Below are positions 18,854-50,230 of a stretch of DNA of 55,210 nucleotides, one piece after another (within the stretch, counting starts at the first letter, position 1; each line of letters opens with the position of its first letter). The stretch is taken from the NCBI GenBank assembly GCA_017525525.1, contig JAFXSQ010000072.1, positions 1 through 55,210 on the forward strand. Direction: 5' to 3'. Under the pieces are notes generated by a model that was not told where the DNA came from, searched no databases, and was given only the letters and a program-made list of their open reading frames with translations. The position numbers and the translations under genes were made by a program. Origin of the DNA: Lachnospiraceae bacterium. Its GTDB lineage: Bacteria > Bacillota > Clostridia > Lachnospirales > Lachnospiraceae.

Positions 18854-18859
18854 AACTAT

Positions 18860-19702: not shown

Positions 19703-19704
19703 TA

Positions 19705-19779
19705 AAAGATTCTTCGGACCGTGTCCTCAGAATGACACATTTTATATACTGTTATCCTGAGTGAAACGAAGGATCCTAA
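19705..19779. repeat. Family A interspersed repeat (inverted pair)
   Basis: Two arms in opposite orientation fill the gap between genes: AAGATTCTTCGG...CTCAGAATGACAC at about 19706-19739 and ATCCTGAGTGAAACGAAGGATCC at about 19754-19777. A GTG at 19761 inside the second arm is in frame with the next gene but is unlikely to be its start. Confidence 0.85.
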
Positions 19780-19793
19780 TGATAGGAGATACT

Positions 19794-22328: not shown

Positions 22329-22338
22329 TGTCGAACCG

Positions 22339-22363
22339 GGCATGATTACTGAGTAATCACGCC
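22339..22363. repeat. Family B hairpin
   Basis: Arms GGCATGATTAC and GTAATCACGCC flank a three-base loop with a single mismatch. Related hairpins lie at 7244-7268 and 55171-55196, where the arm sequence changes but pairing is kept (GATTAC/GTAATC against GATTGC/GCAATC). It sits in the 74-bp gap before the MORN gene. Confidence 0.75.
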
Positions 22364-22402
22364 ACTATAAATAATATTACACAAGGCAGGTGAGAAGAAT
22401 AA

Positions 22403-23655: not shown

Positions 23656-23699
23656 GTGTGATTTATGTGACACTTATGTGACTAATACTGTTGTATTAT
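23656..23699 (+). promoter_or_regulatory. Putative SARP-regulated promoter 2
   Basis: GTGAC at 23667-23671 and 23678-23682 (11-bp period) is followed after 11 bases by TATTAT at 23694-23699. A weaker half-site GTGTG sits one further period upstream at 23656-23660. It lies 12 bases after the MORN gene stop and would drive the three exported-protein genes, with a leader of about 110 bases that contains a family A repeat. Confidence 0.75.
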
Positions 23700-23813: not shown

Positions 23814-25988
23814 ATGAATAATAAAATGCTTCATAACTTAACAAAAAGACTAATCGCAATGTTCGTTGCGGTTTGTTTTGTTCTCTGCATAATTCCATGT
23901 GGATTTACACCTTTAGCTGCAAGAAACAAAGGCGGAAAGCAGCTTAATTTAGTAACCGCCATGAAGCTTGCTGTTGCAAACAGCGAGAAGATAGAAGCAA
24001 TCGATATGCAGATTGAGGCAAAGAAGGCCGCTAAGCAGTCGGCTATCAAGTCTCTCAATGCCAAGAAGAAAAATATGTCTACCCTGAGGTGGTCTCCACT
24101 TCTTAATTTCAAGCTTCCGACCAAGCCTAACGAGCAGGAAGCCTTTGAATTCCAGTTCAAACCCACACAAATCCAAAGCGAGATTGACAAATTAGAGCAC
24201 AAGAAGCAGGCTCAGAAGATTGAAGAGTATGCTGCTGTTCGTTCGTATTTTGTCGATATAGTTTCATGTGAGAATATCATAACCTTTAATACGGAGAGGT
24301 TGGAGAGCTTAGATGATGCGAAGAAAAAGCTTTCTGCCAAGCTGAAGCTCGGCCAGGCCCAGCAGGGTGATATTGATAAGGTCGAGGCAAAAATCGGAGA
24401 ACTCGAAACCAAGATAAGCAACGCAACTTCAAAGCAGCTGAGAGCTGAGAAGAAGCTTTCGACCGCAATCGGAATTGATGTTACAAGCGGCTATACATTT
24501 GAAAATCCGTTTGTTTCCTCCGAGATAGGAAGAAGCGCCGTTAAGTACCTTGAGAATTACGCGGTTGACCACGATCAGGGTTATTACGAGGCAAAGATGG
24601 ATGCGGATATGGAGATGCTCTCGCTCCAGATTAACTATAACCTGATTAAGAATAAGTACGGCGGCAAGGTTAACTCTATTGCATCTTTTGTGACACAGGC
24701 CATGAACGGCGGCAACATAAACAAGAAGGCTTTCAAGAAGGCTTACGATGAGTTTCTTACCAAGATTGACGATCCATGGAGAGGCAACTACAAGATTCTC
24801 TTCTTCAAGTTCCCGAAGGAAAGACTTAAGGGAGATAACGACGGTACTAACTGGATTGAGGATGATCCTTACACCCTTTACAGCAATGCGCTTGATTATG
24901 TATCGGCGAAGAAGGACAAGGATAACACCGAGTTAGACTTAAGAGGCGCAGTGGATGATGGATTTGATAATTATGCGGCGGCAAGAACCGAATACAAGAA
25001 AGCGGTTAAAACTCTTACAAGCGCCAAGAACGCGCTTCTTACGGCTGAAGTATTAAATGCTTTGGGAGAGCTGAACGACTCGGAGTACAACGACATAGAA
25101 GAGGCTTACAACACGGCAAACAGCGAGGTTGAGAGCACTCTTACGAACTACAGTTCAATTACCTATGAATTCGACAAGACAACCTGCGGCGGTGTATCGG
25201 CTTACCTTGAGATGCAGGGCATAACCCTTGGCTCTTCGGATACCGCGGCAGCAAACGGACTTAAAACCTTAGTTCCGGTGTATGAGGACGGAATCATTTA
25301 TTCACTCGATTTTATGGCAGAGGAAAGTCTCTTTGACTTAAGGATTGATGTGCCCAGTGATTTCTCAGTTGAGAACATAAACTATTACGAGCTTTGGTGC
25401 AACAATATCCAGGTCGGGCCGAGAACCTACATCAAGAATCCAATAAGACACCTGTCCATAGCATTAGAGGGCACGGACAAGTGTGAGGTACGCTTCTACA
25501 AGAATGCAACCGGCCAGACCGCTCAGGATTATATAGCAACCTCGGAGTTTGATCCGACTGTTTACAGAGGCCAGCTTGCCTTCATTAAGGATTACAATAC
25601 ATTTACCCAGGAGGGTATGGTAATCGGTTCTTATGAAGTCAACAACGAAGCCAAGACCGGAAGCATAAAGCTTAAGTTAAAGCTGGACAATACCTACGGA
25701 GTCGCAAAGTACGGCATAAAGGTCGGAAATATCTATAGCGAAAACGGCGACTTAAGCGCGGATGACAGCAAGAAGAGCTACTTAAGAGAGGGTACCGCAA
25801 GCAAGTTTGTTGATATCGATAAGGAATATACCTACCTCGACGCTGTGGGCGGAGGTCTGGCAAATGTAACCATAGAGTTTACCGATGCGGACGGCAACAA
25901 ACTATTTGATGCGATTATGAAGGTCGGTGACGGAACGGTGGTAGTACCGAGATCGCAGTTAGAGTACATAATGAATTATCAGGGGTAA
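23814..25988 (+). CDS. Exported TolC-like coiled-coil protein
   Basis: The 724-residue product has a signal peptide (helix RLIAMFVAVCFVLCIIPCGF, cleavage probably near residues 33-37). The long helical region that follows has outer membrane efflux protein character: LNLVTAMKLAVANSEKIEAI, repeated Ala/Lys/Glu helices, KLSAKLKLGQAQQGDIDKVE, then KKLSTAIG. These are the marks of TolC-type hairpin repeats, yet the rest looks monoderm. Residues 460-724 are a beta-rich domain (LDFMAEESLFDLRIDVPSDF). I infer a surface or cell-wall-zone coiled-coil barrel or tether, not an outer-membrane porin. The start is ATG 23814 behind AAAGGTG. It is first of three exported proteins and lies four bases upstream of the next gene. 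Confidence 0.65.
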   Translation: MNNKMLHNLTKRLIAMFVAVCFVLCIIPCGFTPLAARNKGGKQLNLVTAMKLAVANSEKIEAIDMQIEAKKAAKQSAIKSLNAKKKNMSTLRWSPLLNFKLPTKPNEQEAFEFQFKPTQIQSEIDKLEHKKQAQKIEEYAAVRSYFVDIVSCENIITFNTERLESLDDAKKKLSAKLKLGQAQQGDIDKVEAKIGELETKISNATSKQLRAEKKLSTAIGIDVTSGYTFENPFVSSEIGRSAVKYLENYAVDHDQGYYEAKMDADMEMLSLQINYNLIKNKYGGKVNSIASFVTQAMNGGNINKKAFKKAYDEFLTKIDDPWRGNYKILFFKFPKERLKGDNDGTNWIEDDPYTLYSNALDYVSAKKDKDNTELDLRGAVDDGFDNYAAARTEYKKAVKTLTSAKNALLTAEVLNALGELNDSEYNDIEEAYNTANSEVESTLTNYSSITYEFDKTTCGGVSAYLEMQGITLGSSDTAAANGLKTLVPVYEDGIIYSLDFMAEESLFDLRIDVPSDFSVENINYYELWCNNIQVGPRTYIKNPIRHLSIALEGTDKCEVRFYKNATGQTAQDYIATSEFDPTVYRGQLAFIKDYNTFTQEGMVIGSYEVNNEAKTGSIKLKLKLDNTYGVAKYGIKVGNIYSENGDLSADDSKKSYLREGTASKFVDIDKEYTYLDAVGGGLANVTIEFTDADGNKLFDAIMKVGDGTVVVPRSQLEYIMNYQG

Positions 25989-25991
25989 AAT

Positions 25992-28808
25992 ATGAAAAAA
26001 ACAGGCACAAAGAAAACTGCATATAAGATACTTGTAGCAATCGCCTTTGTGCTTGCTGTGGGCGGAGCGGCTATTTTTGGAATAGGCCGCGCGAAGAAGG
26101 CGGAGGCAGACACAAAGAGTAGGGCCTTGTCGCTTCCGACAAATGTAACGGAGAACGCCCTTACCTCAAACAAGGCCAAGCTTTCACAGGCGGAGTATGA
26201 GAAGCTGGTCGAGAAGGACTACAAGGAAAGCGGCGGTATGGTTAAATTCGGCAATTACCGTCAGCGCTTTGATGTGAACAAGGCTACCTACTTTATAGGC
26301 ACCTACCTCATAGAAATCGACGGTATGAACGAAACCTACTATCGTTCGGCAACACTCTCCAAAACCCAAAGGAAGCAGGAGATAGCTTACTACAAGTCGG
26401 AAATCCATCAAAACGGCGCAAACGGCTCGGGAGAGGATGTGTGGGCAGAGTTAGCGGGAGCATCCCTCAACTCACTTACCAAGGGAGATGTCCTTCAGGA
26501 AAGCGCCATGGATCCTTACTGGATAAGCCACGTTGTTACCGGTGACGGAGTCTACGATCCGATGACCGGAGACAAGATAGATCCTTCGCTTGACAGCCTC
26601 TATGATTTGCTCAATCTTCCGGAGCTTCTTCCGTTAAAGAAGAAGTACGACGAGATAGAGGACAAGGATATCAAGACCGAAAATGAGAAGCAGCATAATT
26701 ACTACACAAGGAATATGCTTGTTTCGACAGACGGAGACTTGAACGAGACTGACAAATTAAGCTTTGCTCCTTACGAGAAACACGGACGGAACGATATCAC
26801 GAATCGCTGTGATATAGAAATAAAAACTCTGATGACTTATCACGACAAGCTGGAGGCCGCATCGGAGGACAAGAGGGCAGAGGTCATCTTAGACCTCTAC
26901 GCAAGGGATGATGTAAAGAGACATGTGGAGGTCTACAAATTCCTCTGTATGGAGGTAGACGGCAATCCTTCGGCGCTCTCAAAGATAAGCGAGATGTTAA
27001 ACGCTAAGAAGAACGAGACAGGAAGCGGTTTTGTGTTGGATGAGGACTACGCTTCGGCCGTAGCTGAGAGTCTTCAGAACTGCAAGAATACCTACTATGC
27101 GCTTTTATCCTCTCTGCTTTCGTCGAACGGAACGGTTATAGCGGATTACAGGTACACCTGGAGCACAGAGATACTCGACTATGCTTATGACAACAAGCTT
27201 GACGCGGAAGCGGACAGCCGAGCCGATTACATCTCGGCCGCAAACAGCATAGGAGAGGGCAATCAGGATGATGTGGAGCTTGAGACGGTTGTTCTTGAGA
27301 ATTCCTTCCTTCCCGAGGGCGTAAAGAGATTTGAGAATAAGGTTCTGTGTCCTGTTACATCCGAATATACGAAGGCCTTAAAGGAAGAAAAGTCGGAGGC
27401 AACCTTAAATGACATACTTGAGGAGCAGTATAACGGCGCCATAAAGCAGATGCTTGAGCTTGAGTTTCTGGTTACGGCGGAGACCGGCAGGATAAGCGCT
27501 CAGGATGCCGCGCATCTGATTCAGGAGCACATTATAATGGCTAAGCTCTGGAAGACCATGGTATTCGACGATCCTTACGGTCCCTTGGCAGAGATAGTAA
27601 TAGACAAGTATTTAGACTGGCTTTATAAGAAGTACAAGGAGATAACCGGTGAAGATTACGAACCGGAAGACCCGACAGGAGGTCTGGGCGATCCGCCGTA
27701 TGACGATCCCGAGACGGAAAGGATGGTAAACATTCTTAAAGGTGAGGGCAACGGCAGCGACAAGAACGGCAGCAATTCGGATTATACCGATAACAGCGGC
27801 GAAAATGCAGATGATTTTGCAAACAGGATAAAAGGTCTTGACACCGACGGGCTGTTAAAGGAGCTTGGCAAGCTGGTGGGAGACGACTTGAACAAGAATA
27901 ATTTCGGTTCGCTCGAAGGACTTGCAAGAATAGCCGGAGACCTGGGCAAGGGAGATAAGTTAGGAGATTTGCTCGGTACAGGAAACGGCGGTAACGGCGA
28001 TGGCAATGGAAACGGCAAGTTCGGAGGCGACATAGACGACCTGCTCAACAGGGGCTTAGGCGACGGCGAGGACAGAAACGGCAACAGAAATAACGAGAAT
28101 TACGGCGACAATTACGGCGACCGTGACGGCAAGGGCGGAGATGACGAGAACCCGTGGGACAACAATCAGGGCTTACTCGACAAGCTCGGCGCCAACGATG
28201 CTAACATCTATGATTTAAGCGATGACCTACTGGCGGCTTTCCTGGAAAGCTATTTCGGAGATGCCTTCGCCAACCTTCCGGCTGACATGAAGGCTGCGGC
28301 GATAGTGGCAATTCATAGGTATGGCATAAGGCATAATGCGGTAAACTGCATAGCATACGCTAGAAAGCTGTTGAACGAGATTATAGCCGAGAAGAACCCG
28401 CTTGTGTACGCACAGTATGATGGCGATGTGACAGCGGAGTATATAAGCTTCGGAGCAGTAGACTACAGTCAGGAGTATACCGGCTTCAGGTTTGTAAACG
28501 AAGATAACAACAAGACATTGGCAAGAACCGGAACCACATCCTCCTATTCATTTAGTGATCAGAGGGTAAATATTTCGGACGGAAGCATAAAGGACTTAAG
28601 AAATCCTCTGGGTTACCAGATTGATTATTATATATCCGCGGGCAATAAGACCTTCCCGTATATCTGTGAGGAGGATGCCAAGGATTACTTAAAGGAGAAT
28701 GCGGAGTACATAACCGATACCGACTGGGGTATAGTGGTAACCGAGAAGATGGAGAACGAAACAGTGAAGATAATCGCAGAGCTTGAGAGCTTTGTGGAGA
28801 ACCGGTAA
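25992..28808 (+). CDS. Exported protein with Gly/Asn/Asp-rich linker (paralogue 1)
   Basis: The 938-residue product has an N-terminal export helix (about residues 12-32; KILVAIAFVLAVGGAAIFG), a helical region to about 575, an acidic Pro/Asn/Gly-rich stretch and a Gly/Asn/Asp-rich linker at about 655-725. A folded C-terminal domain spans about 730-938. It has no LPXTG sorting signal and no C-terminal membrane helix. Blocks shared with the next product include YYKSE near the N terminus and NPLVYAQY, EYTGFRFV, FPYICEEDAKDYL near the C terminus. I know no family for it. It starts at ATG 25992, three bases after the TolC-like gene. It may be a structural surface partner of the injection system. 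Confidence 0.7.
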   Translation: MKKTGTKKTAYKILVAIAFVLAVGGAAIFGIGRAKKAEADTKSRALSLPTNVTENALTSNKAKLSQAEYEKLVEKDYKESGGMVKFGNYRQRFDVNKATYFIGTYLIEIDGMNETYYRSATLSKTQRKQEIAYYKSEIHQNGANGSGEDVWAELAGASLNSLTKGDVLQESAMDPYWISHVVTGDGVYDPMTGDKIDPSLDSLYDLLNLPELLPLKKKYDEIEDKDIKTENEKQHNYYTRNMLVSTDGDLNETDKLSFAPYEKHGRNDITNRCDIEIKTLMTYHDKLEAASEDKRAEVILDLYARDDVKRHVEVYKFLCMEVDGNPSALSKISEMLNAKKNETGSGFVLDEDYASAVAESLQNCKNTYYALLSSLLSSNGTVIADYRYTWSTEILDYAYDNKLDAEADSRADYISAANSIGEGNQDDVELETVVLENSFLPEGVKRFENKVLCPVTSEYTKALKEEKSEATLNDILEEQYNGAIKQMLELEFLVTAETGRISAQDAAHLIQEHIIMAKLWKTMVFDDPYGPLAEIVIDKYLDWLYKKYKEITGEDYEPEDPTGGLGDPPYDDPETERMVNILKGEGNGSDKNGSNSDYTDNSGENADDFANRIKGLDTDGLLKELGKLVGDDLNKNNFGSLEGLARIAGDLGKGDKLGDLLGTGNGGNGDGNGNGKFGGDIDDLLNRGLGDGEDRNGNRNNENYGDNYGDRDGKGGDDENPWDNNQGLLDKLGANDANIYDLSDDLLAAFLESYFGDAFANLPADMKAAAIVAIHRYGIRHNAVNCIAYARKLLNEIIAEKNPLVYAQYDGDVTAEYISFGAVDYSQEYTGFRFVNEDNNKTLARTGTTSSYSFSDQRVNISDGSIKDLRNPLGYQIDYYISAGNKTFPYICEEDAKDYLKENAEYITDTDWGIVVTEKMENETVKIIAELESFVENR

Positions 28809-28810
28809 GA

Positions 28811-28845
28811 AAGAATCCACCGCAAGCGGTACCCTTATGACGAAA
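28811..28845. repeat. Family D dispersed repeat, inverse copy of one at 55120-55160
   Basis: The segment AGAATCCACCGC-AAGCGGTACCCTTATGACG, just after the stop codon of the 938-residue protein gene, is the reverse complement of a segment at about 55122-55154. It contains the small hairpin ACCGC-AA-GCGGT. It sits in the 86-bp gap between the two paralogous exported-protein genes. Confidence 0.75.
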
Positions 28846-28894
28846 TGCGAGGGCTTGCGAAGCAACAGGAAGAGTCTTATAAAAGGAGTAAAGA

Positions 28895-31800
28895 ATGAAG
28901 AAAAGTAAAAGCCGTAAAAAACTGAATATCAAACGCAAGCTTGCGCTTTTACTTTGCCTTGTGTTCGTGATGGCGACGATTAACACGGGCTCCGTGGTAA
29001 TCGGGGATGAAGCTGCTTCGGCGGTCAGAACAAGTATTGTTTCCGCTACGGATGTTGCTCTTGCCGATAATGAGGTCGACTCCATAGAGAAGCTCCCGGG
29101 CGTAAAGTTCTCGAGCATAAACAGGAACTACCTTACCAACGGCATGATGCTAATCGGAGCTTTCCTTATACATAAGGATTATATGAATGACGCGATTTAT
29201 AACCTTGCAGTCAACAGCATGGCGCAGTATAACCAGCCCATATTCTACTATAAGTCAGAGCTTGCGGGCGGAAAGTGGATAGATGTTCTCTCGGCAAGTG
29301 ACTTAAACGAATTAAGAGGCGTGACCGGCGGTGTCCTTAACGATAACGACTTGAACGATTATAAGGTTTGCGGAGTTATCTACAGTGACGGTATCATGGA
29401 GACGGTGGGCTCGGACAGCGGCAATAATATCTTCAGTATAACCAATCCTTATGATTATAAGAATTTAAGTGAGATATCCGCTTTGGCGACTCTTTATGAC
29501 GGGATAAATGTAAATATCAAGTTTGACGGAGCTGCTCCGATAGCGGACGGCGATAAGCTCTCGGATGTATATATGAAGGTCTGGGCCGGCAGGCTGTTGT
29601 TCGGCGGAGCACCCGGAGATACAAACGGTCAGGCCATAATGTCGGCCATAGGAGACGGTCAGAACGAGACAACCAAGTCTATGGATGAAGCACTTGATAA
29701 GATGAGGGCCATCTATTCTGAGCTGAGCAGGAACGGCTATGACAACGATTACCTTGAAGCCATGACGGAGGCTATGGGACAGGCAGACTCCATAAGGCGT
29801 TCGGAGATATACTATATGCTTGCCTTCAACGGTGCGGGCAGCATATATGACGCCATCTGCAACAGGCAGTATGACAAGCTTATGACCAAGGAACAGTGGG
29901 CAGATAAATTCATGGCCAACAACTGGGGGTCGGACTGGCGGCATAATGATAAGTGGTCTGCTGCCATAGATAAGTGTCTCGATAATTGTTCAAGAAAATG
30001 GGCTACATGGAGCTCTGTTGATTACGGTAAAATCGAGAGAACACTGACAGATGTCTATCTTCAGATGAACCCTACATCCTCCAAGGCCTACCTGGATGTA
30101 CTCAAATTCCACGGATTTTCGGACCGATACGGAGTATATCCTTCGTCGATATTCGGTATTGAATGGTATAGATTATTTCAGGCGGCAGCCGTTTCCGGTT
30201 CAATCCTTCCGGGTGGTTTGGATGCAAATATATATATGTATCAGAACAAAATTGACAAGAATGACAAGAATCGCTATTCAATCGTATATCTTGCCTCGGA
30301 ATACGGCTGGGCAATCTCACAGGCCGGCGACCGTATCGGCGATGTGAAGCATTGGGCGGACAGGGGACAGTACCTGAAGGCCTTCAACAATTATATGTCT
30401 CTTATCCAGAGAACTAATTTCAGAAGAGACGGGGTTTCGGATTATACTGATCAGACTTATGTTATCCCGGGGTCGGGCAGACTTAACGACCTTCTTGACA
30501 GACTGCAGGCAGGTTCGGGTCTCAAAGCGGAGGACAGGGCGAATTATACAGCGAACTCTGAGTACATCGAGGCTGTAAAGACGGCTATAGAGGCTTGTGA
30601 GCAGGCATATTATAATTATAACGCGCTTATTGTTCAGTCGGATAATACCGTTATCGGTGATGCCAAGTATAATGCAATAACCTATCTTGTGGAGCATGCC
30701 AAGGACGGGCTGAACCAGAATTATCTGGACAATATTAAGATGTATGTCACCATAAGAAATGTAATGGATGATATAATAGCGGACAGGACTGCGGAGTATG
30801 ACTATATTATAGGCACCCTGCTTCCGGCAACAGCCTCCAATTACACTTCGGCTCTTTACGCCGGTCCTAACCAGCTCTATATAGATTCGGTTAACGAGGG
30901 CGCGCCGGAGGATACCCAGAAGGGACACTTGAACAACCAGAAGGGCGCCTTGGACGGAAAGCTTGCGGAGTATGAGTTCGCAATTTCGGCAAGGGTTTCG
31001 CGTATGGCTCTCGCGCAGAGAGTTCCTTACATAGACCAGATGCTTGTCACGGCAGAAAGTCTTAAGGACAGCATAGGCGATACGGCCTTCAAGAGCTATG
31101 CCGAGACCTCTGTGGATGAGTTCATAGAGTGGCTTAACAACCTAAAGAAGGACATCTTAGGCGCAAGCACCGGAGATTCAGAGCTTGACGGACTTAACAG
31201 CCAGAAGGCTGCTTTCCTGGATGCTTACCTGGATGCTCTTGATGAGGGCGACTTAGATGCGGCAGCTGATTACAAGAATGCCTTAGACGACCTTCTCTCT
31301 AAGATTAAAGGCATTCAGGACAGCGCATTAAATGATTTCATAGACGGCGATGCGGCGGCAGCCTCGGATGCATTGAACAAGTTAGGAGGCACCGATACAG
31401 AGCTTGCCAACAAGCTTCTCGGCAAGGCGGGAGATGAGATCGGTGACGGAGACTTTGACAATATAGACGGCTACATAGACGCCTTAAAGGAATTGGGCGA
31501 TGAAGACGGTTTAGATAAGCTTAAGGGCATGCTTCAGGATGCCGGAGCGGACGACCACCTGCTTAACGCAACGGACAGGGCGTTAAAAGACCTTAAGAAC
31601 GGAAAGGGTAACGGCGCAGGCGGAGACGGAACCGGAGGCGGCAACGGCAACGGCAACGGTAACGGAGACGGAACCGGAGGCAACGGTGTAGGAGACGGCA
31701 ACGGTAATGGAGATGACAATGGCAACGGTAACGGCAACGGCGATGAAGACGGCAGAGGAAGAAACGGCAGTCACGGCGACGATTACGGAAAGAACGGCGA

Positions 31801-32434
31801 CGGCTTAGACGACCTGAGCAATTTCGGCGACAGGGATGACGAGAGATATGACGGCTTAAACGACCTCTTAGACCGTTTTGGTGACTGGGACAATATGAAC
31901 CCCGAGGATAAGGCTGCAATTGTATGCGCGCTCTTTGCTTATGACGGCATGGACAAGACGCTTGCTAGACAGCTTGCGATGCTCCTCTTAGACCAGTTAC
32001 TCTCTGAGGGTAATCCTTTCGTCTACGAGAAGTATCACGGAACCGAGACCGAGCTGCTGTGCGTGAACTTAAAGGCAGTAGATAGATGTATGGAATACTC
32101 GGGCTTCAGATACGTACTCAAGAATGGACTTCATACCATGAGCCAGACCATGGGTTCAGCAAGCTATATGTTCGAGGACGGACTTGCGACAGTATTAAGG
32201 TCCGACGGAAAGCGCGACAACATCAACATCTCGCCGCGCTCACAGACAGACGTGACCATCGATAAGACCGAAACGCTGAAGTATCCTTATATATCCAAGG
32301 AAGACAGCGAGACTTACCTGAATGTAAGTTGCGTCTACATTCCGGACACCATATATGCTATACTTAAGACCGAGAACATGGACGAGCGTGTGCAGGAACT
32401 CCTGAATCTGCTCGAAGTTGCATATGGTGAGTAA
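28895..32434 (+). CDS. Exported protein with Gly/Asn/Asp-rich linker (paralogue 2)
   Basis: The 1179-residue product has a signal peptide (RKLALLLCLVFVMATINTGSVVIG). A long helical body runs to about 900, including Asp/Ala/Leu-rich helices at 760-880. A low-complexity linker at about 903-955 is built of short Gly-Asn-Gly and Gly-Asp-Gly units, and a C-terminal domain spans about 985-1179. The C-terminal domain matches that of the upstream product: NPFVYEKY, EYSGFRYV, YPYISKEDSETYL correspond to NPLVYAQY, EYTGFRFV, FPYICEEDAKDYL. It lacks cell-wall sorting signals. It starts at ATG 28895 behind AAAAGGAG. It ends 235 bp before the structural operon. Its function is unknown; surface assembly or particle docking is my inference. 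Confidence 0.7.
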   Translation: MKKSKSRKKLNIKRKLALLLCLVFVMATINTGSVVIGDEAASAVRTSIVSATDVALADNEVDSIEKLPGVKFSSINRNYLTNGMMLIGAFLIHKDYMNDAIYNLAVNSMAQYNQPIFYYKSELAGGKWIDVLSASDLNELRGVTGGVLNDNDLNDYKVCGVIYSDGIMETVGSDSGNNIFSITNPYDYKNLSEISALATLYDGINVNIKFDGAAPIADGDKLSDVYMKVWAGRLLFGGAPGDTNGQAIMSAIGDGQNETTKSMDEALDKMRAIYSELSRNGYDNDYLEAMTEAMGQADSIRRSEIYYMLAFNGAGSIYDAICNRQYDKLMTKEQWADKFMANNWGSDWRHNDKWSAAIDKCLDNCSRKWATWSSVDYGKIERTLTDVYLQMNPTSSKAYLDVLKFHGFSDRYGVYPSSIFGIEWYRLFQAAAVSGSILPGGLDANIYMYQNKIDKNDKNRYSIVYLASEYGWAISQAGDRIGDVKHWADRGQYLKAFNNYMSLIQRTNFRRDGVSDYTDQTYVIPGSGRLNDLLDRLQAGSGLKAEDRANYTANSEYIEAVKTAIEACEQAYYNYNALIVQSDNTVIGDAKYNAITYLVEHAKDGLNQNYLDNIKMYVTIRNVMDDIIADRTAEYDYIIGTLLPATASNYTSALYAGPNQLYIDSVNEGAPEDTQKGHLNNQKGALDGKLAEYEFAISARVSRMALAQRVPYIDQMLVTAESLKDSIGDTAFKSYAETSVDEFIEWLNNLKKDILGASTGDSELDGLNSQKAAFLDAYLDALDEGDLDAAADYKNALDDLLSKIKGIQDSALNDFIDGDAAAASDALNKLGGTDTELANKLLGKAGDEIGDGDFDNIDGYIDALKELGDEDGLDKLKGMLQDAGADDHLLNATDRALKDLKNGKGNGAGGDGTGGGNGNGNGNGDGTGGNGVGDGNGNGDDNGNGNGNGDEDGRGRNGSHGDDYGKNGDGLDDLSNFGDRDDERYDGLNDLLDRFGDWDNMNPEDKAAIVCALFAYDGMDKTLARQLAMLLLDQLLSEGNPFVYEKYHGTETELLCVNLKAVDRCMEYSGFRYVLKNGLHTMSQTMGSASYMFEDGLATVLRSDGKRDNINISPRSQTDVTIDKTETLKYPYISKEDSETYLNVSCVYIPDTIYAILKTENMDERVQELLNLLEVAYGE

Positions 32435-32594: not shown

Positions 32595-32638
32595 GTGAAA
32601 AAACAGTGACTGTTTAGTGACTGTTTGTGTGATAGACT
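32595..32638 (+). promoter_or_regulatory. Putative SARP-regulated promoter 3 (structural operon)
   Basis: Three half-sites lie in phase at 11-bp spacing: GTGAA 32595-32599, GTGAC 32606-32610 and GTGAC 32617-32621. After 11 bases comes TAGACT at 32633-32638 as the -10. The two complete half-sites are part of a perfect 11-bp tandem repeat (AGTGACTGTTT at 32605-32626). The ATG of the first structural gene is 31 bases past the -10. Spacing is identical to promoters 1 and 2. Confidence 0.78.
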
Positions 32639-32668: not shown

Positions 32669-33259
32669 ATGGCTGATTATCCTATTATTGCAGACGTAAG
32701 CGCATATATCGTCAGGACCTTAAGACAGAAGATGTGTCCGGAGCCGATACCTTCACCGAACAATATAGAGATATCGTCCCCGGCGTCCCAGGACGTTGAC
32801 TATATCTTAGGACTTTACCTCTATGATGTGAAGGAAGAAAACGACGTTACCAGACCGCCGAACATGACACGCGGAAAGGTACAGCTCACATTACCGCCAA
32901 GACCGTATAGCCTTTACTATATGGTTTTCATAAACGGATCCTCCCAGATGGGACTAAAGGCTCCGGATATACAAAAAATCATTGGTCGTGTGGCACAGAT
33001 TATCAACGATAACAATTCAGTGCTGCCGAACCAGCTGCAATCCTGGCTGGAAACACAGGAACCTCCGATTGTACTGTCTCAGGCGAAGATAAGTCTGGAG
33101 GAAAAGGTAAGGGTGTGGAGCGCTATCAACAAACCATATCAGATTAGCCTCTTCTACAAGGCGGCACCCGTATTCTTATCCAGCGAGGTTGTTATCGATA
33201 CACCGAGAGTTGTTGATGCAAGCTTTGGTGTACACATTACCGGCGAAGGGGGGGAGTAA
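32669..33259 (+). CDS. CIS terminal cap protein, DUF4255/Pvc16 N-terminal family
   Basis: The 196-residue protein matches the DUF4255/Pvc16_N family: an N-terminal helix with IIADVSAYIVRTLRQKM, the strand DYILGLYLYDVKEENDVTRP, the block LPPRPYSLYYMVFING and the helix IQKIIGRVAQIINDNNSVL. In characterised extracellular contractile systems the Pvc16-type protein caps the distal end of tube and sheath. The start at ATG 32669 has AAAGGAAC upstream. It is first in the structural operon, six bases ahead of a GTG-started gene. Confidence 0.88.
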   Translation: MADYPIIADVSAYIVRTLRQKMCPEPIPSPNNIEISSPASQDVDYILGLYLYDVKEENDVTRPPNMTRGKVQLTLPPRPYSLYYMVFINGSSQMGLKAPDIQKIIGRVAQIINDNNSVLPNQLQSWLETQEPPIVLSQAKISLEEKVRVWSAINKPYQISLFYKAAPVFLSSEVVIDTPRVVDASFGVHITGEGGE

Positions 33260-33264
33260 TGTAA

Positions 33265-34005
33265 GTGGAAGACGGTGCTGTAATCCGTTGCAGGCTGGAT
33301 CTTTTAGTCCGGCTCATTGACACAACGACGGGGCAAGCCGTAACCGAACGCAACGTGGTCTTTAAAAACGGCGACAAAAAGCTAGCCGCTCAAGGCAGGG
33401 GCGATGGCAACTATATCTTTATAGATACAGGCAGAGATAATTATCTTATGACGCTATCGGTTTTTGGCTACGAGGACAAGCTTATCGACGTAAATTATGA
33501 GACACTTGATGAAAGGATGCCTTCCATAGACGCATTCCTGCTACCGGCAGAGAATACAAACTATGATACAATTACTCTTTCGGGAAAGCGTACCGGTCTT
33601 GTGGCTGTTGAGGCGGTTCAGATTGGTAAACCGGTTTGCAGCATAAGCGAATTCAACAAAAAGGATTTAAAGATGACGCTCTTTCTTGCTAATAAGCAGA
33701 TGAACATGGAGGGCGGTCATTACGGGCTCTTACACGGCGAGGACAGTTATGAGCATATCTTTGTGGAAAAGCAGTTCAACCCCACATTGTTAAAGCTTAA
33801 AGAGGAGCTTGCCGAAGAGTTCACGGTCAACAGCCCAATATGCAGGGTTGTGTTCGGAGAGGTCGGTCCAAAAGGAGCATTCAGATTAAGAATAAGAGAC
33901 TCCGGAGGCGATCTTAGATACCTTGTCAGATATCAAATCAAGGACAAGGTTAAGTTCAAGGTTATTGATTTTAAGAATGATGACCTTTCCGAGATTAAGC
34001 TTTAA
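33265..34005 (+). CDS. Protein with N-terminal prealbumin-like (carboxypeptidase regulatory) domain
   Basis: The 246-residue protein starts at GTG 33265, eight bases after GGGGGGAG. Residues about 8-95 look like a transthyretin/carboxypeptidase-regulatory beta-sandwich (DLLVRLIDTTTGQAV, GDGNYIFIDTGRDNYLMTLSVFGYEDKLIDV). The remaining 150 residues are mixed alpha/beta, ending KVIDFKNDDLSEIKL. It lies between the cap gene and the PAAR-like gene, so a role in cap or tip assembly is likely. I do not know a named family for the C-terminal half. Confidence 0.6.
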   Translation: MEDGAVIRCRLDLLVRLIDTTTGQAVTERNVVFKNGDKKLAAQGRGDGNYIFIDTGRDNYLMTLSVFGYEDKLIDVNYETLDERMPSIDAFLLPAENTNYDTITLSGKRTGLVAVEAVQIGKPVCSISEFNKKDLKMTLFLANKQMNMEGGHYGLLHGEDSYEHIFVEKQFNPTLLKLKEELAEEFTVNSPICRVVFGEVGPKGAFRLRIRDSGGDLRYLVRYQIKDKVKFKVIDFKNDDLSEIKL

Positions 34006-34023
34006 GAGACATGAGGTGGCAAC

Positions 34024-34413
34024 ATGGGACAAGTAGTAACAACAGGCGCACAGCTGATGTGCAGCTTCGGAACAACGCCGGGTAACCTGACAGCGACCAA
34101 CCAGCAGACGGTCCTGATTGAGGGCAAACCGGCAGCGACATTATCAGATACGGCGCCAATGGTGAACATAACACCCTTCGGGATGTGCACTTCACTGGCA
34201 AATCCACAGGTGGCGGCAGCTACGGCAGCGGCACTCGGAGTACTTACACCGCAGCCATGCATACCGGCCCCGGCGGGCACATGGATCCCAAGCCAGTCAA
34301 CGGTTTTGGCCGGAGGCACACCGTGCCTCACAAACGACTGCAAGCTCATGTGCTCTTATGCGGGATCAATATCCATAGTAAATCCCGGACAGGTAAAAGC
34401 AAGTATAAATTGA
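34024..34413 (+). CDS. PAAR-like spike-tip protein (DUF4280 family)
   Basis: The 129-residue, Cys- and Gly-rich protein matches DUF4280: the opening QVVTTGAQLMCSFG, the segment TPFGMCTSLANP, and the closing block GTPCLTNDCKLMCSYAGSISIVNPGQ. DUF4280 proteins are PAAR-like tips that sharpen the spike of contractile systems, and the several cysteines could hold a metal. The gene starts at ATG 34024 behind GAGGTGG and lies 14 bp upstream of the sheath gene, far from the split spike genes at 44604-46746. Confidence 0.85.
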   Translation: MGQVVTTGAQLMCSFGTTPGNLTATNQQTVLIEGKPAATLSDTAPMVNITPFGMCTSLANPQVAAATAAALGVLTPQPCIPAPAGTWIPSQSTVLAGGTPCLTNDCKLMCSYAGSISIVNPGQVKASIN

Positions 34414-34427
34414 AAGGAGAAAACTAA

Positions 34428-36134
34428 ATGGCTGAATATTTTTCACCGGGCGTATATGTAGAGGAGTATGATAATTCTCCGAGAAGCATAGAGGGTGTCG
34501 GCACAAGTACAGCCGGCTTCATAGGCTTCGCTGAGAAGGGTGCAACAGAGGGAGCACCGGCGCTCGTAACCAATTTCAAGAGCTTCAAGAAGCAGTTTGG
34601 CGGTTTCTTATCGGAGTACACACACGGAGAGTATCGTTTCCTTGCCAACAGCGTAGAGCAGTTCTTCGCAAACGGCGGAACACGCTGCTATGTAACAAGA
34701 GTTATTCCTTCAGATGCTGCAAAGGCTAAGAAGAAGGCGGGCATCCTTACATTTACCGCTGCTAACGAGGGTAAGTGGGGCAACCGTGTTCAGATATCTT
34801 TCGCAACGGTTACAAAGCGCAAGATGCAGCTTATCGCTAAGTCAGGCGACTCAGCATACGTTGCTAAGAGCGTAGATGGATTTAAGGAAGGCGACATCGT
34901 AGTAGTTAACGGCGAGTACAATCGCATCGCAACTATCTATGATGAGACAGTAACCTTCGAGAACAAGTTCAAGGCTGAGGTTGTAGACGAGAGCGTAATC
35001 CCGAAGACAGTTCTCTACCTTGTAACCTTCGATGTTCAGATAAGATTTAACGATGATGTTGAGAACTACTCAGAGCTCTCATTAAACATTTCTTCACCTG
35101 ATTACATCGGCGCAAAGCTTGCAGTAAGCGAACTCGTTAAGGTTGAGGTTGCTGCAGCTAAGGAGATTGGCAATCCTGTTGAGGCAATCCTCGGCAAGGG
35201 TGTTGCAGACGGAATGGTTACTCTTGAGGGTGGTACAGACGGTACAATGTCCAAGGTTAACGCCGGCACATTTATCGGTGTTGACGAGGGCCCCGGCAAG
35301 CGTACAGGTATCCAGTCATTCCTTGAGAATGACATCGTAAGCATGATTGCAATCCCCGGTGTAACAATTCCTGAGGTTATCGTAGCACTCGTTGCACATT
35401 GCGAGAATACAAGAAGCCGCTTCGCAGTTATCGATATGCCCGGAGACAAGTATAAGACAGAAGATCTTATCAACTACAGAAGCATGATCGATTCTACATA
35501 CGCAGCTATGTATCACCCCTGGATCCAGGTATTTGACAGAAGCTCAAATAAGCCTGATTTCATCCCGCCTTCAGGCGCAGTTATGGGTGTTTACTCAAGA
35601 ACAGACATCAACCGCGGTGTTCACAAGGCACCTGCTAACGAGGCTGTATTCTGTACAGGCCTTAAGGTTAACTACACCAAGGAGGAGCAGGATATTCTTA
35701 ATCCCGAGGGCATCAACCTCATCAGGAATATCCCGGGCTCAGGCATCCGTATCTGGGGCGCAAGAACAGCAAGCTCCAACAAGGCATTCAAGTATGTCAA
35801 TGTCAGAAGACTTTTCATCTTCGTTGAGGAGTCAATCAAGGCTAACACCAACTGGGTTGTATTTGAGCCGAACGATCCTACACTTTGGCAGAGAGTAAGC
35901 TTAACGGTAAGCTCATTCCTTGACAGTATGTGGAGATCGGGCATGCTTTCGGGTACATCACCTGCTGAGGCATACTTCGTGGAGATCGGACCTTCAACCA
36001 TGACAAGAGACGACATCATGAACGGTCGCCTTATCTGCAACATAGGTATAGCGCCTTCAAGACCGGCAGAGTTCGTAATCTTCCGCGTTACACAGCATAC
36101 CGCTGAGTCAGGCGGAGCAGCAGAGGAAAGCTAA
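34428..36134 (+). CDS. Contractile sheath protein
   Basis: The 568-residue protein is a phage tail sheath family member. It begins MAEYFSPGVYVEEYDNSPRSIEGVGTSTAGFIG (quoted only to its conserved features: the SPGVYVEE start and the GVGTSTAGFIG turn), has the ANGGTRCYVTRV segment and the C-terminal NTNWVVFEPNDPTLWQRV and FVEIG blocks. Only one sheath gene is present, unlike the three of Afp/PVC. Codons lean to T- and A-ending choices such as GTT, GCT, ACA and GCA more than in neighbouring genes, which fits high expression. The start is ATG 34428 behind GAAAGGAG. It polymerises around the inner tube and contracts to drive it out. Confidence 0.97.
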   Translation: MAEYFSPGVYVEEYDNSPRSIEGVGTSTAGFIGFAEKGATEGAPALVTNFKSFKKQFGGFLSEYTHGEYRFLANSVEQFFANGGTRCYVTRVIPSDAAKAKKKAGILTFTAANEGKWGNRVQISFATVTKRKMQLIAKSGDSAYVAKSVDGFKEGDIVVVNGEYNRIATIYDETVTFENKFKAEVVDESVIPKTVLYLVTFDVQIRFNDDVENYSELSLNISSPDYIGAKLAVSELVKVEVAAAKEIGNPVEAILGKGVADGMVTLEGGTDGTMSKVNAGTFIGVDEGPGKRTGIQSFLENDIVSMIAIPGVTIPEVIVALVAHCENTRSRFAVIDMPGDKYKTEDLINYRSMIDSTYAAMYHPWIQVFDRSSNKPDFIPPSGAVMGVYSRTDINRGVHKAPANEAVFCTGLKVNYTKEEQDILNPEGINLIRNIPGSGIRIWGARTASSNKAFKYVNVRRLFIFVEESIKANTNWVVFEPNDPTLWQRVSLTVSSFLDSMWRSGMLSGTSPAEAYFVEIGPSTMTRDDIMNGRLICNIGIAPSRPAEFVIFRVTQHTAESGGAAEES

Positions 36135-36181
36135 AAAACCTTAAAAGTTAGAGGAATAAAACAGTAAAGGAGAATTAAGTT

Positions 36182-36682
36182 ATGGCAGGTAATCCATATC
36201 AGAACAGCAAAGGGCTTGCTTATCCCTTAACTAAGATGAACTTTAAGGTGAGTGTAGCTAATGTAGAGGGTACAGCAGCTTTCTCACAGGTTACGGGCAT
36301 AGAGGCAAGCGTCGATGTTATAGAATTCAGACAGGGCAATGCGAACTCACTCGCACCGGTTAAGATTCCGGGCCTTGTAAAGCACGGCAATGTTACTCTT
36401 CGTTTCGGATACACACTTGATTCCGCATTCAAGACATGGATTCAGGAGTGCGTGAGCGAGACAAGAGGTGAGATTCCGAGAAATGATGTTCAGATTGAGC
36501 TTGTGGACATCAACGGCGGTGCTCCGCAGCAGTACGCAACAGCAATCACAGGTACGAGAGTATGGCTCCTCACCAACGCGTGGGTAACCAAGTATACCGC
36601 ACCTGAGCTTGACGCAAAGACAAGTGATGTTGCTATCGAGTCTGTAGAGCTTGCTTACGAGGAGCTCATTATACCAAACTAA
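36182..36682 (+). CDS. Inner tube protein (gp19/Hcp-like)
   Basis: The 166-residue protein belongs to the T4 gp19-like tube family: the opening NPYQNSKGLAYPLTKMNFKV, the SQVTGIEASVDVIEFRQGN segment, the IPGLVKHGNVTLRFGYT strand and the closing VAIESVELAYEELI. It stacks as hexameric rings inside the sheath. The start is ATG 36182 behind AAAGGAG. A strong hairpin begins 15 bases after its stop, consistent with sheath and tube being made in excess over later genes. Confidence 0.96.
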   Translation: MAGNPYQNSKGLAYPLTKMNFKVSVANVEGTAAFSQVTGIEASVDVIEFRQGNANSLAPVKIPGLVKHGNVTLRFGYTLDSAFKTWIQECVSETRGEIPRNDVQIELVDINGGAPQQYATAITGTRVWLLTNAWVTKYTAPELDAKTSDVAIESVELAYEELIIPN

Positions 36683-36696
36683 GATATTACATTTTT

Positions 36697-36730
36697 CCAC
36701 ACCAGGGCCCCTTTTGGGGTCGTGGTGTGG
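36697..36730 (+). terminator. Hairpin terminator or attenuator after the tube gene
   Basis: Arms beginning CCACACCA (36697-36704) and ending TGGTGTGG (36723-36730) also pair GCCCC with GGGGT near the loop. T-rich sequence follows (TTGTTTGTTGTTTTT to 36757). It probably gives partial termination, lowering expression of the baseplate genes relative to sheath and tube. Confidence 0.65.
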
Positions 36731-36930
36731 TCTGGTATATGGTTGTTTGTTGTTTTTAGGATTTTTTGAGAGTTTTCGCGGCACGTAAGTCATGGCCCAC
36801 CTGCCTGGGGATGAGTTTTTAAGTCGCTTTGAAATACTCCTTCAAACACATCCCTGGCGCGGTGGGTTGAAGGGTATAGAGGGAATGCCGCTTACTTTGG
36901 GAAAAACGAGCATATATCAGACCACACCAC
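36722..36930. other. Long-range inverted repeat in the 364-bp gap after the tube gene
   Basis: GTGGTGTGGTCTGGTATAT at 36722-36740 is complementary to ATATATCAGACCACACCAC at 36912-36930 over 19 positions, with a single G-U pair if RNA. The left arm is also the 3' arm of the terminator hairpin at 36697, so the two foldings exclude each other. Inside, CCCACC...GGGGATG (about 36793-36810) pairs with CATCCC...GGTGGG (about 36847-36864). No convincing gene is present in this gap. It could be a structured RNA, an attenuation switch or a miniature element with terminal inverted repeats. Confidence 0.55.
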
Positions 36931-36931
36931 A

Positions 36932-37027
36932 GTGTCATCCGGAGCAAAAGAAAGATTCTTCGCTACGCTCAGAATGACACAAAAGAAAATCAATTCTGTC
37001 ATCCGGAGCAACGCGAAGGATCTTAAA
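36932..37027. repeat. Family A interspersed repeats, three arms
   Basis: Three arms follow each other: GTGTCATCCGGAGC (36932), AAGATTCTTCGCTACGCTCAGAATGACAC (about 36953-36980), and CTGTCATCCGGAGCAACGCGAAGGATCTTAA (to 37027). They fill the space before the small gene starting at 37047. Confidence 0.85.
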
Positions 37028-37046
37028 TATGAGGAGGATTAACATA

Positions 37047-37409
37047 ATGGAAACAGTATACGAGTTCACATTACCCAAAGGGTATATAGACGCTAACGGG
37101 GACATACACAGGAACGGTAAGATGAGGCTGGCAACGGCGGGCGATGAAATCAGCGCCACCAGGGATCCTCGAGTATTATCGAATCCTTCATACCTGACGA
37201 TAGTTATTCTTTCAAGGGTTGTGACCGAGCTTGAGGGAGTGCAGACGATAAGCGCAACTCTCATAGAGAGACTGTTTACCGCAGACCTTGCTTTTCTGCA
37301 GGATATGTACCAGAGGATTAACGACATAGAACCGCCGGCAATGCAGGTTGTATGTCCGGATTGCGGAAAGACCTTTGAGGTGCCGCTAAATTTTACCGTA
37401 GGGGAATAA
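37047..37409 (+). CDS. Tail-assembly-protein-like small CIS protein
   Basis: I start this gene at ATG 37047, nine bases after GAGGAGG, giving 120 residues beginning METVYEFTLPKGYIDANGD. An ATG at 37029 overlaps the Shine-Dalgarno. The middle is helical (NPSYLTIVILSRVVTELEGV, then LFTADLAFLQDMYQRIND) and the end has a zinc-finger-like CPDCGKTFEVPL. It lies between the tube gene and the next tube-fold gene, where phages encode tail-assembly chaperones. Its reading frame overlaps an alternative frame that leads to the DUF6760-like protein, with a slippery heptamer at 37388-37394. It may act in the loading or assembly of tube components. Confidence 0.75.
   Translation: METVYEFTLPKGYIDANGDIHRNGKMRLATAGDEISATRDPRVLSNPSYLTIVILSRVVTELEGVQTISATLIERLFTADLAFLQDMYQRINDIEPPAMQVVCPDCGKTFEVPLNFTVGE
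37388..37394 (+). promoter_or_regulatory. Candidate -1 ribosomal frameshift site
   Basis: A AAT TTT in the frame of the upstream gene is a canonical X-XXY-YYZ heptamer. A -1 slip here leads to TAC CGT AGG GGA and onward without a stop into the DUF6760-like sequence. The zero frame stops at 37407-37409. The -1 frame is open from 37379. No strong downstream pseudoknot was seen; a small GAGAT/ATCTC hairpin lies at about 37439-37456. Confidence 0.5.
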
Positions 37410-37441
37410 GTCTCTATCCGGAGGAGGAACTCTACCGCGAG

Positions 37442-37621
37442 ATGGCATTTATCTCTTATTACTTCCACTGGAGCGAGAAGGAGGTAATGAATATGGAACA
37501 CGGCGAACGCCGTAGGTGGTGTAGCCAGATATCCTCCATAAACACGAGCTTAAACCCCGCAGATAAGAACAGAGAGAAGAGCATCCTTGACATGGTTCCC
37601 ACGAACAGTGTCAGGATGTGA
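37442..37621 (+). CDS. Small DUF6760-like (Pvc6-type) CIS protein
   Basis: This 59-residue reading frame from ATG 37442 encodes MAFISYYFHWSEKEVMNME then HGERRRWCSQISSIN. I recognise this as the short helical protein found after the tube genes of extracellular contractile systems (Pvc6/DUF6760; typical motif AFIAYHFHW...LEHxERRRW). The family signature appears to begin before the ATG: the same frame upstream reads LYPEEELYRE, and no ATG, GTG or TTG is available between 37379 and 37442. Either translation starts at 37442 behind GGAGGAGG, or the full form is made by a -1 frameshift from the preceding gene. Its role in baseplate or tube assembly is not settled. Confidence 0.75.
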   Translation: MAFISYYFHWSEKEVMNMEHGERRRWCSQISSINTSLNPADKNREKSILDMVPTNSVRM

Positions 37622-37648
37622 GTATAAGATTTAGAGAGGTAACAGCTT

Positions 37649-39322
37649 ATGGCAATGGGTTTTAGTCAAGATGCATTTGGCGATATAAGCGGTGTATCCG
37701 ATCCTACCAAGGACAATCCCCCAATAGTCAACTTTAACTTTGTGCTAAGAGTTGAACTGTTATGGGATATCGCCTGTAAGTCCATCAGAATCGAGAGAAA
37801 AGAAAATGAATTCGATCTTATACAGGAGGGTGGTTTAAACGACTACCCACACAGGATAAGAAAACCGATAACGAGGATGTTCACCTTAAGGGTTGAGCAG
37901 TATGTAGGAGCAGGTTTCCTGGATCCCCTTTCGTTGGGAACCAAGCTGGTGCTCCCTCTTGTGTTGTCTGTGGGCAGATACACAAGTCCTACGTTGTTTT
38001 TCCCGGACAGGCAGTATATATTCACGGGCTGTGAGGTTACGGCCAAGGAACCCGGCGAGCTTCAGTCGGAGAGAAGCGGACTGCTTACCGAGAGCACGAC
38101 TATTGCCTACGAGAGCATGTTCACCATAGATTCGCCCTTTGAAACAGAGAAGAAGATCTGGCAATTTGACGGCTTTGCCAAAAGCGGCAAAGGCGATTCA
38201 AGTCGAAATAAGACCATGGAGGCATTCGAGCTTACTCAGAATGAGATGACTGCAAGGACACAGCGCTGGAGTATGTCAAAGCAGCATGGCGACGGTTCGG
38301 AGGAAAGAACAGAGCCTTCTGTAGGTTCAAGACAGAATCTTTACCTTAATACAACCGAGGCCTCTGCCAACGAGTTTGCGAAGAAGCATAAGCTGTGGAC
38401 CTTTGATTCTGCCGATGCCGGCGAATACGATCCGATGAAGGACAGGAATTATCAAGGCAAGGGTGATGCTTCACGCCAGAATATAGCAAAGAACATGACG
38501 GATGTTCATAAAGCGGATATGAAGAGTAAAGCATCTCTTTGGACCTTTAACCCCGAGGATGAGAAAGTAAAAGAATTTGATAAGAAGAGTAAGTCGGGCG
38601 CAGGTAAGGCTGCAAGGCAGAATTTAAGAGCGCCCTTCAGTGAAAATGCCGAAGCTGCGAGAGACGATCTGGCAAAGAAAAGCCGTCGTTGGGACTTCGA
38701 TGAGAATGATAAGAATAATACCACTCCGCCGAAGGGGACCAAGGGCCAGGGAACCTCTTCAAGGTTCCAATACGATGAAGAGACCGAGAAAAAGCTCAAT
38801 CCTTCCGTGGAAAAGATGCGTGAGAATGCAAAGCAGTGGGAGTTTGACCCGAGTGATGCAACGGTGACCGATCCCTTTGCAAAGAGGCATCCAAAGGGCA
38901 CGGGAGATATTTCAAGACAGAATGAGAAGATGAAGGCCGCCGACCCCGACAGAGACACCATGATTAATGCAGCAAAGCAGTGGGGCTTTGATGAGAAGGA
39001 TGTCAACAATTCAGGGCTTCAGAATATAAACAAGAAGGGCAACGAAAAAGCCTCGGCTCAGAAGCAAAACGACGAAGAGGTAAGCAGGGATAATCTTGCG
39101 AAGAAGAGTTCGCTTTGGACCTTTGATCCTGCAGATGAGGGTAACGCCTCACCGAACAAGAATAAAGAGGGCAAGGGAAATGCCGCAAGGCAGAACCTTC
39201 GCGGAGATTACACCGGCATAGCCGAGCTTTCAAAGGATCAGATGAAGGACAAGGCAAGCCTCTGGCCGCCGAAGCAGAGCGCGCAGAATATAGCCGACTT
39301 CCTTTCGGGAGGAAACAAATAA
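37649..39322 (+). CDS. Tube-fold (gp19-like) protein with Trp-containing repeat tail
   Basis: Residues 1-165 of this 557-residue protein form a gp19-like tube domain (NFNFVLRVELLWDIACKSIRIER, LSLGTKLVLPLVLSVG, LFFPDRQYIFTGCEVT), equivalent to the second tube protein (Pvc5-type) near the baseplate. The tail, residues about 165-545, is a series of eight units of about 36-50 residues. Each is centred on a (L/Q/R)W(T/E/D)FD motif (Trp at about 171, 207, 250, 298, 348, 397, 445, 490 and 539) and usually followed by G(K/T)GxASRQN. Known Pvc5 proteins lack such a tail. The units are hydrophilic and probably disordered, and could thread into the tube lumen or bind cargo. The start is ATG 37649. Confidence 0.8.
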   Translation: MAMGFSQDAFGDISGVSDPTKDNPPIVNFNFVLRVELLWDIACKSIRIERKENEFDLIQEGGLNDYPHRIRKPITRMFTLRVEQYVGAGFLDPLSLGTKLVLPLVLSVGRYTSPTLFFPDRQYIFTGCEVTAKEPGELQSERSGLLTESTTIAYESMFTIDSPFETEKKIWQFDGFAKSGKGDSSRNKTMEAFELTQNEMTARTQRWSMSKQHGDGSEERTEPSVGSRQNLYLNTTEASANEFAKKHKLWTFDSADAGEYDPMKDRNYQGKGDASRQNIAKNMTDVHKADMKSKASLWTFNPEDEKVKEFDKKSKSGAGKAARQNLRAPFSENAEAARDDLAKKSRRWDFDENDKNNTTPPKGTKGQGTSSRFQYDEETEKKLNPSVEKMRENAKQWEFDPSDATVTDPFAKRHPKGTGDISRQNEKMKAADPDRDTMINAAKQWGFDEKDVNNSGLQNINKKGNEKASAQKQNDEEVSRDNLAKKSSLWTFDPADEGNASPNKNKEGKGNAARQNLRGDYTGIAELSKDQMKDKASLWPPKQSAQNIADFLSGGNK

Positions 39323-39359
39323 AGAAACAAATAGATTTTAATTATAAGGATAACGGCGT

Positions 39360-41504: not shown

Positions 41505-41510
41505 TGAGGC

Positions 41511-42443: not shown

Positions 42444-42515
42444 TAAATCTATTGAGTTAATAAATCTATTGAGTTAATAAATCTATTGAGTTAAGAAGTC
42501 TATTGAGTTAAGCGG
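42431..42515. repeat. Five 17-bp tandem repeats covering the gene 3' end
   Basis: TCTATTGAGTTAATAAA occurs at 42431, 42448 and 42465, with diverged units at 42482 and 42499. The first unit encodes the last residues and stop codon of the upstream gene. The array lengthens the gap to the next start to 80 bp. It looks like slippage amplification of a gene end. Confidence 0.95.
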
Positions 42516-42523
42516 AGAAATCT

Positions 42524-44602: not shown

Positions 44603-44603
44603 A

Positions 44604-45923: not shown

Positions 45924-45924
45924 T

Positions 45925-46746: not shown

Positions 46747-46759
46747 GGAGGGAGAAGAT

Positions 46760-50219: not shown

Positions 50220-50230
50220 GAGAATGACTT

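Follow-up and report, generated by a model that had tools for sequence, protein, structure and literature searches.

Three predicted promoter boxes of one design stand before three operons of a locus that, judged by its gene content, is an extracellular contractile injection system (eCIS). We read them as activator-dependent promoters of one regulon, recognized by the regulator encoded at 16196, which would co-activate the injection machine, its loader and its cargo; we give this reading a probability of about 0.8. The window analysed is a whole contig of 55,210 bases from a genome of 3.19 Mb in 75 contigs (labelled G000). For Lachnospiraceae-type bacteria the box would supply a code of nanosyringe regulation that can be put to the test, and it would predict unlinked genes that belong to the machine, namely loader, cargo and partner proteins.

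The three boxes and the operons behind them

The pattern GTGAC-N6-GTGAC-N11-TANNNT matches the window exactly at 16996, 23667 and 32606. These sites and the features around them are:

15414..16169, + strand: predicted partner histidine kinase (PF06580 and HATPase_c), 251 aa
16196..16999, + strand: candidate activator, receiver, OmpR-type winged helix (sub-threshold) and short tail, 267 aa, TTG start
16996..17028, + strand: site 1, predicted activator box with -10 TATAAT (17023-17028), before the CIS13-like (accessory) operon
17063..23644, + strand: operon behind site 1 (limits predicted from gene order), CIS13-like, 280-aa, 855-aa and MORN-repeat 413-aa proteins
23667..23699, + strand: site 2, predicted activator box with -10 TATTAT (23694-23699), before the exported-protein operon
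23814..32434, + strand: operon behind site 2 (predicted limits), OEP-like 724-aa, 938-aa and 1179-aa proteins
32595..32599, + strand: weak third half-site GTGAA, one period upstream of site 3, not conserved across sites
32606..32638, + strand: site 3, predicted activator box with -10 TAGACT (32633-32638), before the structural operon
32669..53504, + strand: operon behind site 3 (predicted limits), structural eCIS genes

An earlier, sequence-only reading of this DNA had described two GTGAC half-sites of 11-bp period, a gap of 11 bases and -10 hexamers at 17023, 23694 and 32633. All of these are present as described. The boxes were also said to precede an accessory, an exported-protein and a structural block, which is seen at all three sites and recurs in congeners. 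The first GTGAC of site 1 overlaps the stop codon of the regulator gene (16196-16999). With up to two mismatches allowed, further places in the window are limited to 6009 and 28417, both within listed genes, and no box is found upstream of the kinase-regulator pair.

The locus carries sheath, tube, spike, baseplate and Pvc16-like genes, and the AAA+ genes counted with them lie in contig C50 of the same genome and in a one-contig locus of a congener (G027). Domains found in the structural operon are Pvc16_N, DUF4280/PAAR-like, sheath, tube (gp19) and two CIS_tube, together with gpV-like, gp25, gpJ-like and Tail_P2_I. The CIS13-like protein matches NF053767 with 94.5 bits, below the cut-off of 370. 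Proteins of the site-2 operon are read as exported from their hydrophobic N-termini, judged by eye. Named relatives of the sheath protein are mostly Lachnospiraceae or genera of that family, and many are rumen assemblies. On the flanks of the eCIS genes (9373-14496 and 53660-54991) are encoded an MFS-domain protein, a SpoIIE phosphatase with HATPase, a STAS protein and a HATPase protein; together these genes possibly form a second, partner-switch-like control layer.

An alignment of 24 distinct sites refines the box. It was obtained by collapsing 29 rows, and the sites of G046, G042:C5, G002 and G085 as well as those with incomplete flanks were excluded. The consensus unit is GTGACTGTTnT, T or C always follows the second GTGAC (24 of 24 sites), and the -10 is TATAAT-like, with A in 20 of 24 at position 5, which the pattern leaves free. 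The flanks are unrelated between sites. A third half-site had been claimed for two of the three window sites. GTGAA at 32595 bears this out, but at 23656 there is just GTGTG (3/5). The corresponding columns (-11 to -7) carry at most 0.48 bits across the 24 sites, and because of this low information a third half-site is rejected as a general feature.

No exact match occurs in 100 shuffles of the window. In the whole genome there are seven exact matches against none for the reversed control, and 13 against one when one mismatch is allowed, so that the motif is rare elsewhere and the identical spacing at three places is, as had been argued, hard to ascribe to chance. Among the 100 GTGAC pairs listed of 108 with spacers of 0-30 bases, 12 have spacer 6; TANNNT follows at N11 in seven of these, at N10 in one and at N13 in one, and the remaining three, inside open frames of 292-335 codons, have no TANNNT within N5-N17. 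Spacer 28 (period 33) exceeds every other spacer with 14 pairs among those listed, and the three of them that were inspected fall within open frames, 169-917 codons long. GTGAC spacing alone is therefore only modestly telling, and the rarity comes from the GTGAC pair combined with a -10 at N11. The one-mismatch sites at C4, C37, C43 and C45 were viewed by eye, and the C43 site overlaps an apparent ribosome-binding site and start.

The candidate activator and its proposed action

The protein encoded at 16196 has a receiver domain (PF00072, E 6.6e-21), and a histidine kinase is encoded beside it, as expected of a two-component system. Homologues of kinase and regulator are adjacent in L218, L222 and L223 and about 760 bp apart in L220. 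The match to the OmpR-type winged helix (PF00486, Trans_reg_C) reaches 19.1 bits against a cut-off of 26.2, and a short tail alone follows this domain. In eight queries, two of which are the window protein taken whole and its C-terminal part, PF00486 scores below the cut-off in six and is absent in two, and BTAD (PF03704) has no match at E up to 5 in any of them. The single-sequence AlphaFold model of the regulator has a mean pLDDT of 35 and was not used, and a search of solved structures with the C-terminal half gave no useful match. The regulator had previously been called a receiver-SARP. It has a receiver and a sub-threshold OmpR-type match, but BTAD, which helps to define SARPs, is undetected, and we therefore call the protein just SARP-like. 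At sequence level the predicted target box has the make-up of a SARP box, with direct repeats of 11-bp period that overlap the -35 region.

We propose the following course of activation. The histidine kinase (15414) would phosphorylate the response regulator (16196), and two regulator molecules would sit side by side on the two 11-bp direct repeats GTGACTGTTnT. These repeats would replace the -35 element and span -39 to -18 if the -10 hexamer is placed at -12 to -7. The bound dimer would then recruit RNA polymerase with the housekeeping sigma factor at the TATAAT-type -10, so that the CIS13-like, exported and structural eCIS operons are turned on together. Further copies of the box would turn on the AAA+ operon and putative cargo/GNAT-like modules elsewhere in the genome.

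The closest known system is that of AfsR and its afs box among the Streptomyces SARPs. In the parts of the two sources used here, the likeness lies in a pair of 11-bp direct repeats that overlap the -35 region, about 8 conserved bp with a loose tail, a DNA-binding domain of OmpR type (a sub-threshold match here) and a box centred near -29 (-28.5 here, as placed from the -10) (PMC10936776, PMC10972967). In AfsR, two SARP molecules occupy two 11-bp repeats that extend from -40 to -19; they touch the leading 8 bp of either repeat, and over the -35 element they engage sigma region 4 (PMC10936776). Since the present repeats span -39 to -18, we favour activation in the manner of AfsR, with phosphorylation of the receiver as the trigger. 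The system differs from AfsR in that a receiver precedes the putative DNA-binding domain and BTAD is undetected, and from its Streptomyces counterparts in its Lachnospiraceae-type host and its targets, an eCIS and scattered modules. If the predicted binding is true, the SARP-like promoter architecture would be extended from Streptomyces to receiver-type regulators of the 16196 family. Regulators of BTAD and GerE type are likewise encoded beside eCIS operons, and some of the GerE regulators come with a histidine kinase; within the excerpt of Geller et al. 2021 (PMC8213781) used here, they appear without a named binding site, promoter layout or unlinked regulon. Titles and the starts of abstracts in the open-licence literature gave no description of an eCIS binding code or of receiver-SARP regulators in Lachnospiraceae.

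The same regulator and box could also work by another kind of activation, as ordinary PhoB/OmpR-type promoters which are not SARP-like. We regard this as doubtful, and as the alternative that survives best. Among the NCBIfam models, those of VanR, CreB and PhoB match the protein across the receiver and the winged helix, each with a score far under its cut-off, and its Trans_reg_C match is sub-threshold too. PhoB is itself a response regulator with a winged helix, and the 11-bp direct repeats that it uses take the place of the -35. However, the pho box ends about 10 bases before the -10 and is thus further from it than the boxes here, whose repeats end 5 bases before. This latter distance is close to that of AfsR, with repeats to -19 (PMC10936776). 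Since the fold is common to both, the distinction between SARP-like and PhoB/OmpR-type action is one of degree.

Conservation in the genus and related regulators outside it

The scan was extended to 117 relatives, 37 genomes of the same genus and 80 outside it. At least two exact sites occur in seven of the 37 (G000, G012, G016, G018, G023, G027 and G030), and these are precisely the genomes with a regulator ortholog of at least 70% identity. The co-occurrence (7/7 genomes with the ortholog, 0/30 without; Fisher 1e-7) agrees with the link to the regulator that had been drawn from the window. Two more congeners have one site each: G014, which has a sheath gene and no regulator ortholog found above 38%, and G002, with neither sheath gene nor regulator ortholog. 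Outside the genus, there are four exact sites (G042, two in G046, G085) against three reversed controls (two in G061, G064).

Comparison of intergenic regions from related genomes, proposed earlier as a check, finds the box again at orthologous promoters of congeners, where it is retained while the flanks differ. Counting G000, the promoter of the structural operon has an exact box in all six genomes with upstream sequence, and that of the accessory operon in six of seven testable genomes, with none in G018. For the exported operon the box is exact in five of seven, with one mismatch in the other two. In G016 a contig breaks off at the structural start, and another contig has, at its end, the same box as G023. 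In G018, which has the regulator and no sheath match, tube- and baseplate-type homologues follow one box. A one-mismatch box also separates the gpV-like gene of G027 from its gp25-like gene (L296, C1:128808), possibly an internal promoter.

This conservation has a narrow reach across eCIS loci. Of 80 named Lachnospiraceae-type loci, nine were excluded for lack of a usable Pvc16 start or with less than 120 bp upstream. Four of the 71 testable ones (L117, L118, L120, L121) have an exact GTGAC box before the structural operon. The other 67 show none before Pvc16, with at least three mismatches each, and no repeat of any word in the box layout reaches 7/8 (four reach 6/8). The box is therefore rejected as a universal eCIS code, and by this distribution the exact GTGAC word is close to genus-specific. 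The eCIS structural promoters of L144, L147 and L148 show GTTGC-N6-GTTGC-N11-TATnnT, with GGTGC as second repeat in L144. In G046, of another genus, GTGAC boxes (L213, L214) precede short proteins with sequences that, by eye, resemble double-glycine leaders.

Some related regulators outside the genus are flanked by the same frame with other words. We took 89 loci of homologous regulators, picked by regulator and not by eCIS; they are not independent, as some come from one genome or are closely related (for example L097/L099). The search was free of any given word: an 8-mer repeated at 7/8 or better, with periods from 7 to 16 and, after a gap of 3-19, a hexamer like TATAAT. Period 11 with gaps 10-12 is found in 23 of the 89 loci, where shuffled sequences give 1.6 on average (at most 5 in 30 shuffles), and periods 9, 10, 12 and 13 give 2, 7, 2 and 2. 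The other 66 loci have no box at this threshold. The -10s of period-11 hits stand 20-220 bp after the regulator in 16 of 27 cases, versus one in 21 when periods 8-10 and 12-14 are taken together, and site 1 of the window is placed likewise, directly after the regulator gene. This geometry beside related regulators supports the idea of an activator-type promoter code.

Under a stricter register for listing words, 22 sites are kept, 20 of them outside the genus. The repeated words differ, being GTGTCCTTTTT in G070, GTCACGGTTCT in G088 and GTCATATTTTT in G035 and G006, with GTTGTCCATTT, GCAACGCTTTT and GGAACACTTCT among those at other related regulators. In G070 (regulator 52% identical) the word GTGTCCTTTnT is found at three places genome-wide, with a control of 0, and no sheath match is found. 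In G088 (regulator 46%, sheath 71%) the word GTCAC occurs once genome-wide, after the regulator (control 0), and does not occur within 200 bp upstream of the Pvc16 gene. Where the words differ, so do the sequences of the recognition helices. Half-site distance correlates weakly with helix distance at Spearman 0.19 (7 of 1000 permutations as high) and with whole-protein distance at 0.12 (74 of 1000), in a small test of 18 sites that kept one congener and dropped L261, L263 and L285, which lie inside or far upstream of the regulator.

We lean towards a wider reading of these data. Lachnospiraceae would possess a large family of receiver plus winged-helix activators, each with its own 11-bp word, usually right after the regulator gene, in a fixed frame that consists of two repeats and, 11 bases past base 5 of the second, the -10. 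The word would drift with the recognition helix, systems would be decodable from DNA alone, and the word of the eCIS lineage would tag unlinked cargo operons made together with the machine. This would open a sequence-only route to pairing many orphan regulators with their targets. The word GTTGGACATTT is also seen in box geometry upstream of regulators, in L093 of G023 (position 3115, minus strand), roughly 830 bp before the regulator begins and probably ahead of the kinase, and in L103 of G038, 75 bp upstream of a regulator. A regulator cascade is possible there.

The box might instead be bound by an unlinked regulator that travels with the eCIS, the receiver protein acting elsewhere. The SpoIIE-, STAS- and kinase-type proteins of the locus would offer room for such a factor, and G014 has a site with no close regulator ortholog found. 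Against this, the geometry recurs at loci of related regulators, in most cases directly behind the regulator gene, although their genomes were selected for the regulator and not for an eCIS; the 52% homologue of G070 has its own word at three places with no sheath match; we consider this reading unlikely. An alternative sigma factor, released through the SpoIIE/STAS switch of the locus and reading GTGAC as its -35, is far less probable still: partner-switch-type genes are present (12352, 53660, 54011), but the -10 is TATAAT-like, 22 and 11 bases separate it from the ends of the two GTGAC words, two copies at an 11-bp period are needless for a sigma -35, and other words in the same layout stand by other regulators. 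Chance or a dispersed repeat element has almost no likelihood and is rejected on the shuffles, the reversed control and the 117-genome distribution; the near-equal counts outside the genus would fit it, but the flanks are unrelated and the 30 congeners lacking a close regulator ortholog hold two sites in total (G002, G014).

Further boxes: the loader and putative cargo

Reading by the 16196 regulator would extend to boxes elsewhere in the genome. Behind the C50 site are encoded two AAA+ ATPases, a protein of 2181 aa and a GNAT-like protein. G027 has the locus on a single contig, and there orthologs of AAA1 (87%) and AAA2 (53%) lie downstream of the structural genes; C50 is therefore probably part of the locus. 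A fourth box of G027 follows AAA2 and precedes a 1340-aa protein. Other sites of the window's genome front a pair of 507 and 478 aa (C54) and a 743-aa protein (C73). A one-mismatch site (C44) stands before a protein of 1028 aa that contains a protease domain of calpain type. The site at C1:27063, with an N10 gap, fronts a GNAT protein and then a large protein cut by the contig end. In G018, one box fronts a GNAT-like protein and a 1057-aa protein related to the 1340-aa and 869-aa proteins of G027, and another a protein with surface-type repeats.

By this company and by their charged low-complexity N-termini (judged by eye), the large proteins behind distal boxes are putative cargo. Most of those scanned have no Pfam match at E 0.01, the exception being the calpain-type domain (L050). 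In the Photorhabdus system an AAA ATPase loads cargo via N-terminal signals (PMC11495950).

Large Pfam-less proteins repeatedly neighbour GNAT-like proteins of about 270-320 aa, as seen in the window (766-6496), G027 (L297/L199), G018 (L204) and contigs C54 (L045) and C1 (L299) of G000. These pairs are possibly modules of cargo and partner, the latter a chaperone, modifier or immunity protein. At a one-mismatch box of G000 (L048 6411-6443, C17:59411) the next genes downstream are tRNA-Gly and tRNA-Pro on the other strand, and the box is perhaps an orphan promoter whose gene was lost. The C71 site has just a short frame behind it (L046, C71:107933), which has an N-terminal FVTKDN motif in common with the 743-aa protein of C73 (L047, C73:56271); perhaps the former is a remnant, the latter is intact, and both share one loading signal.
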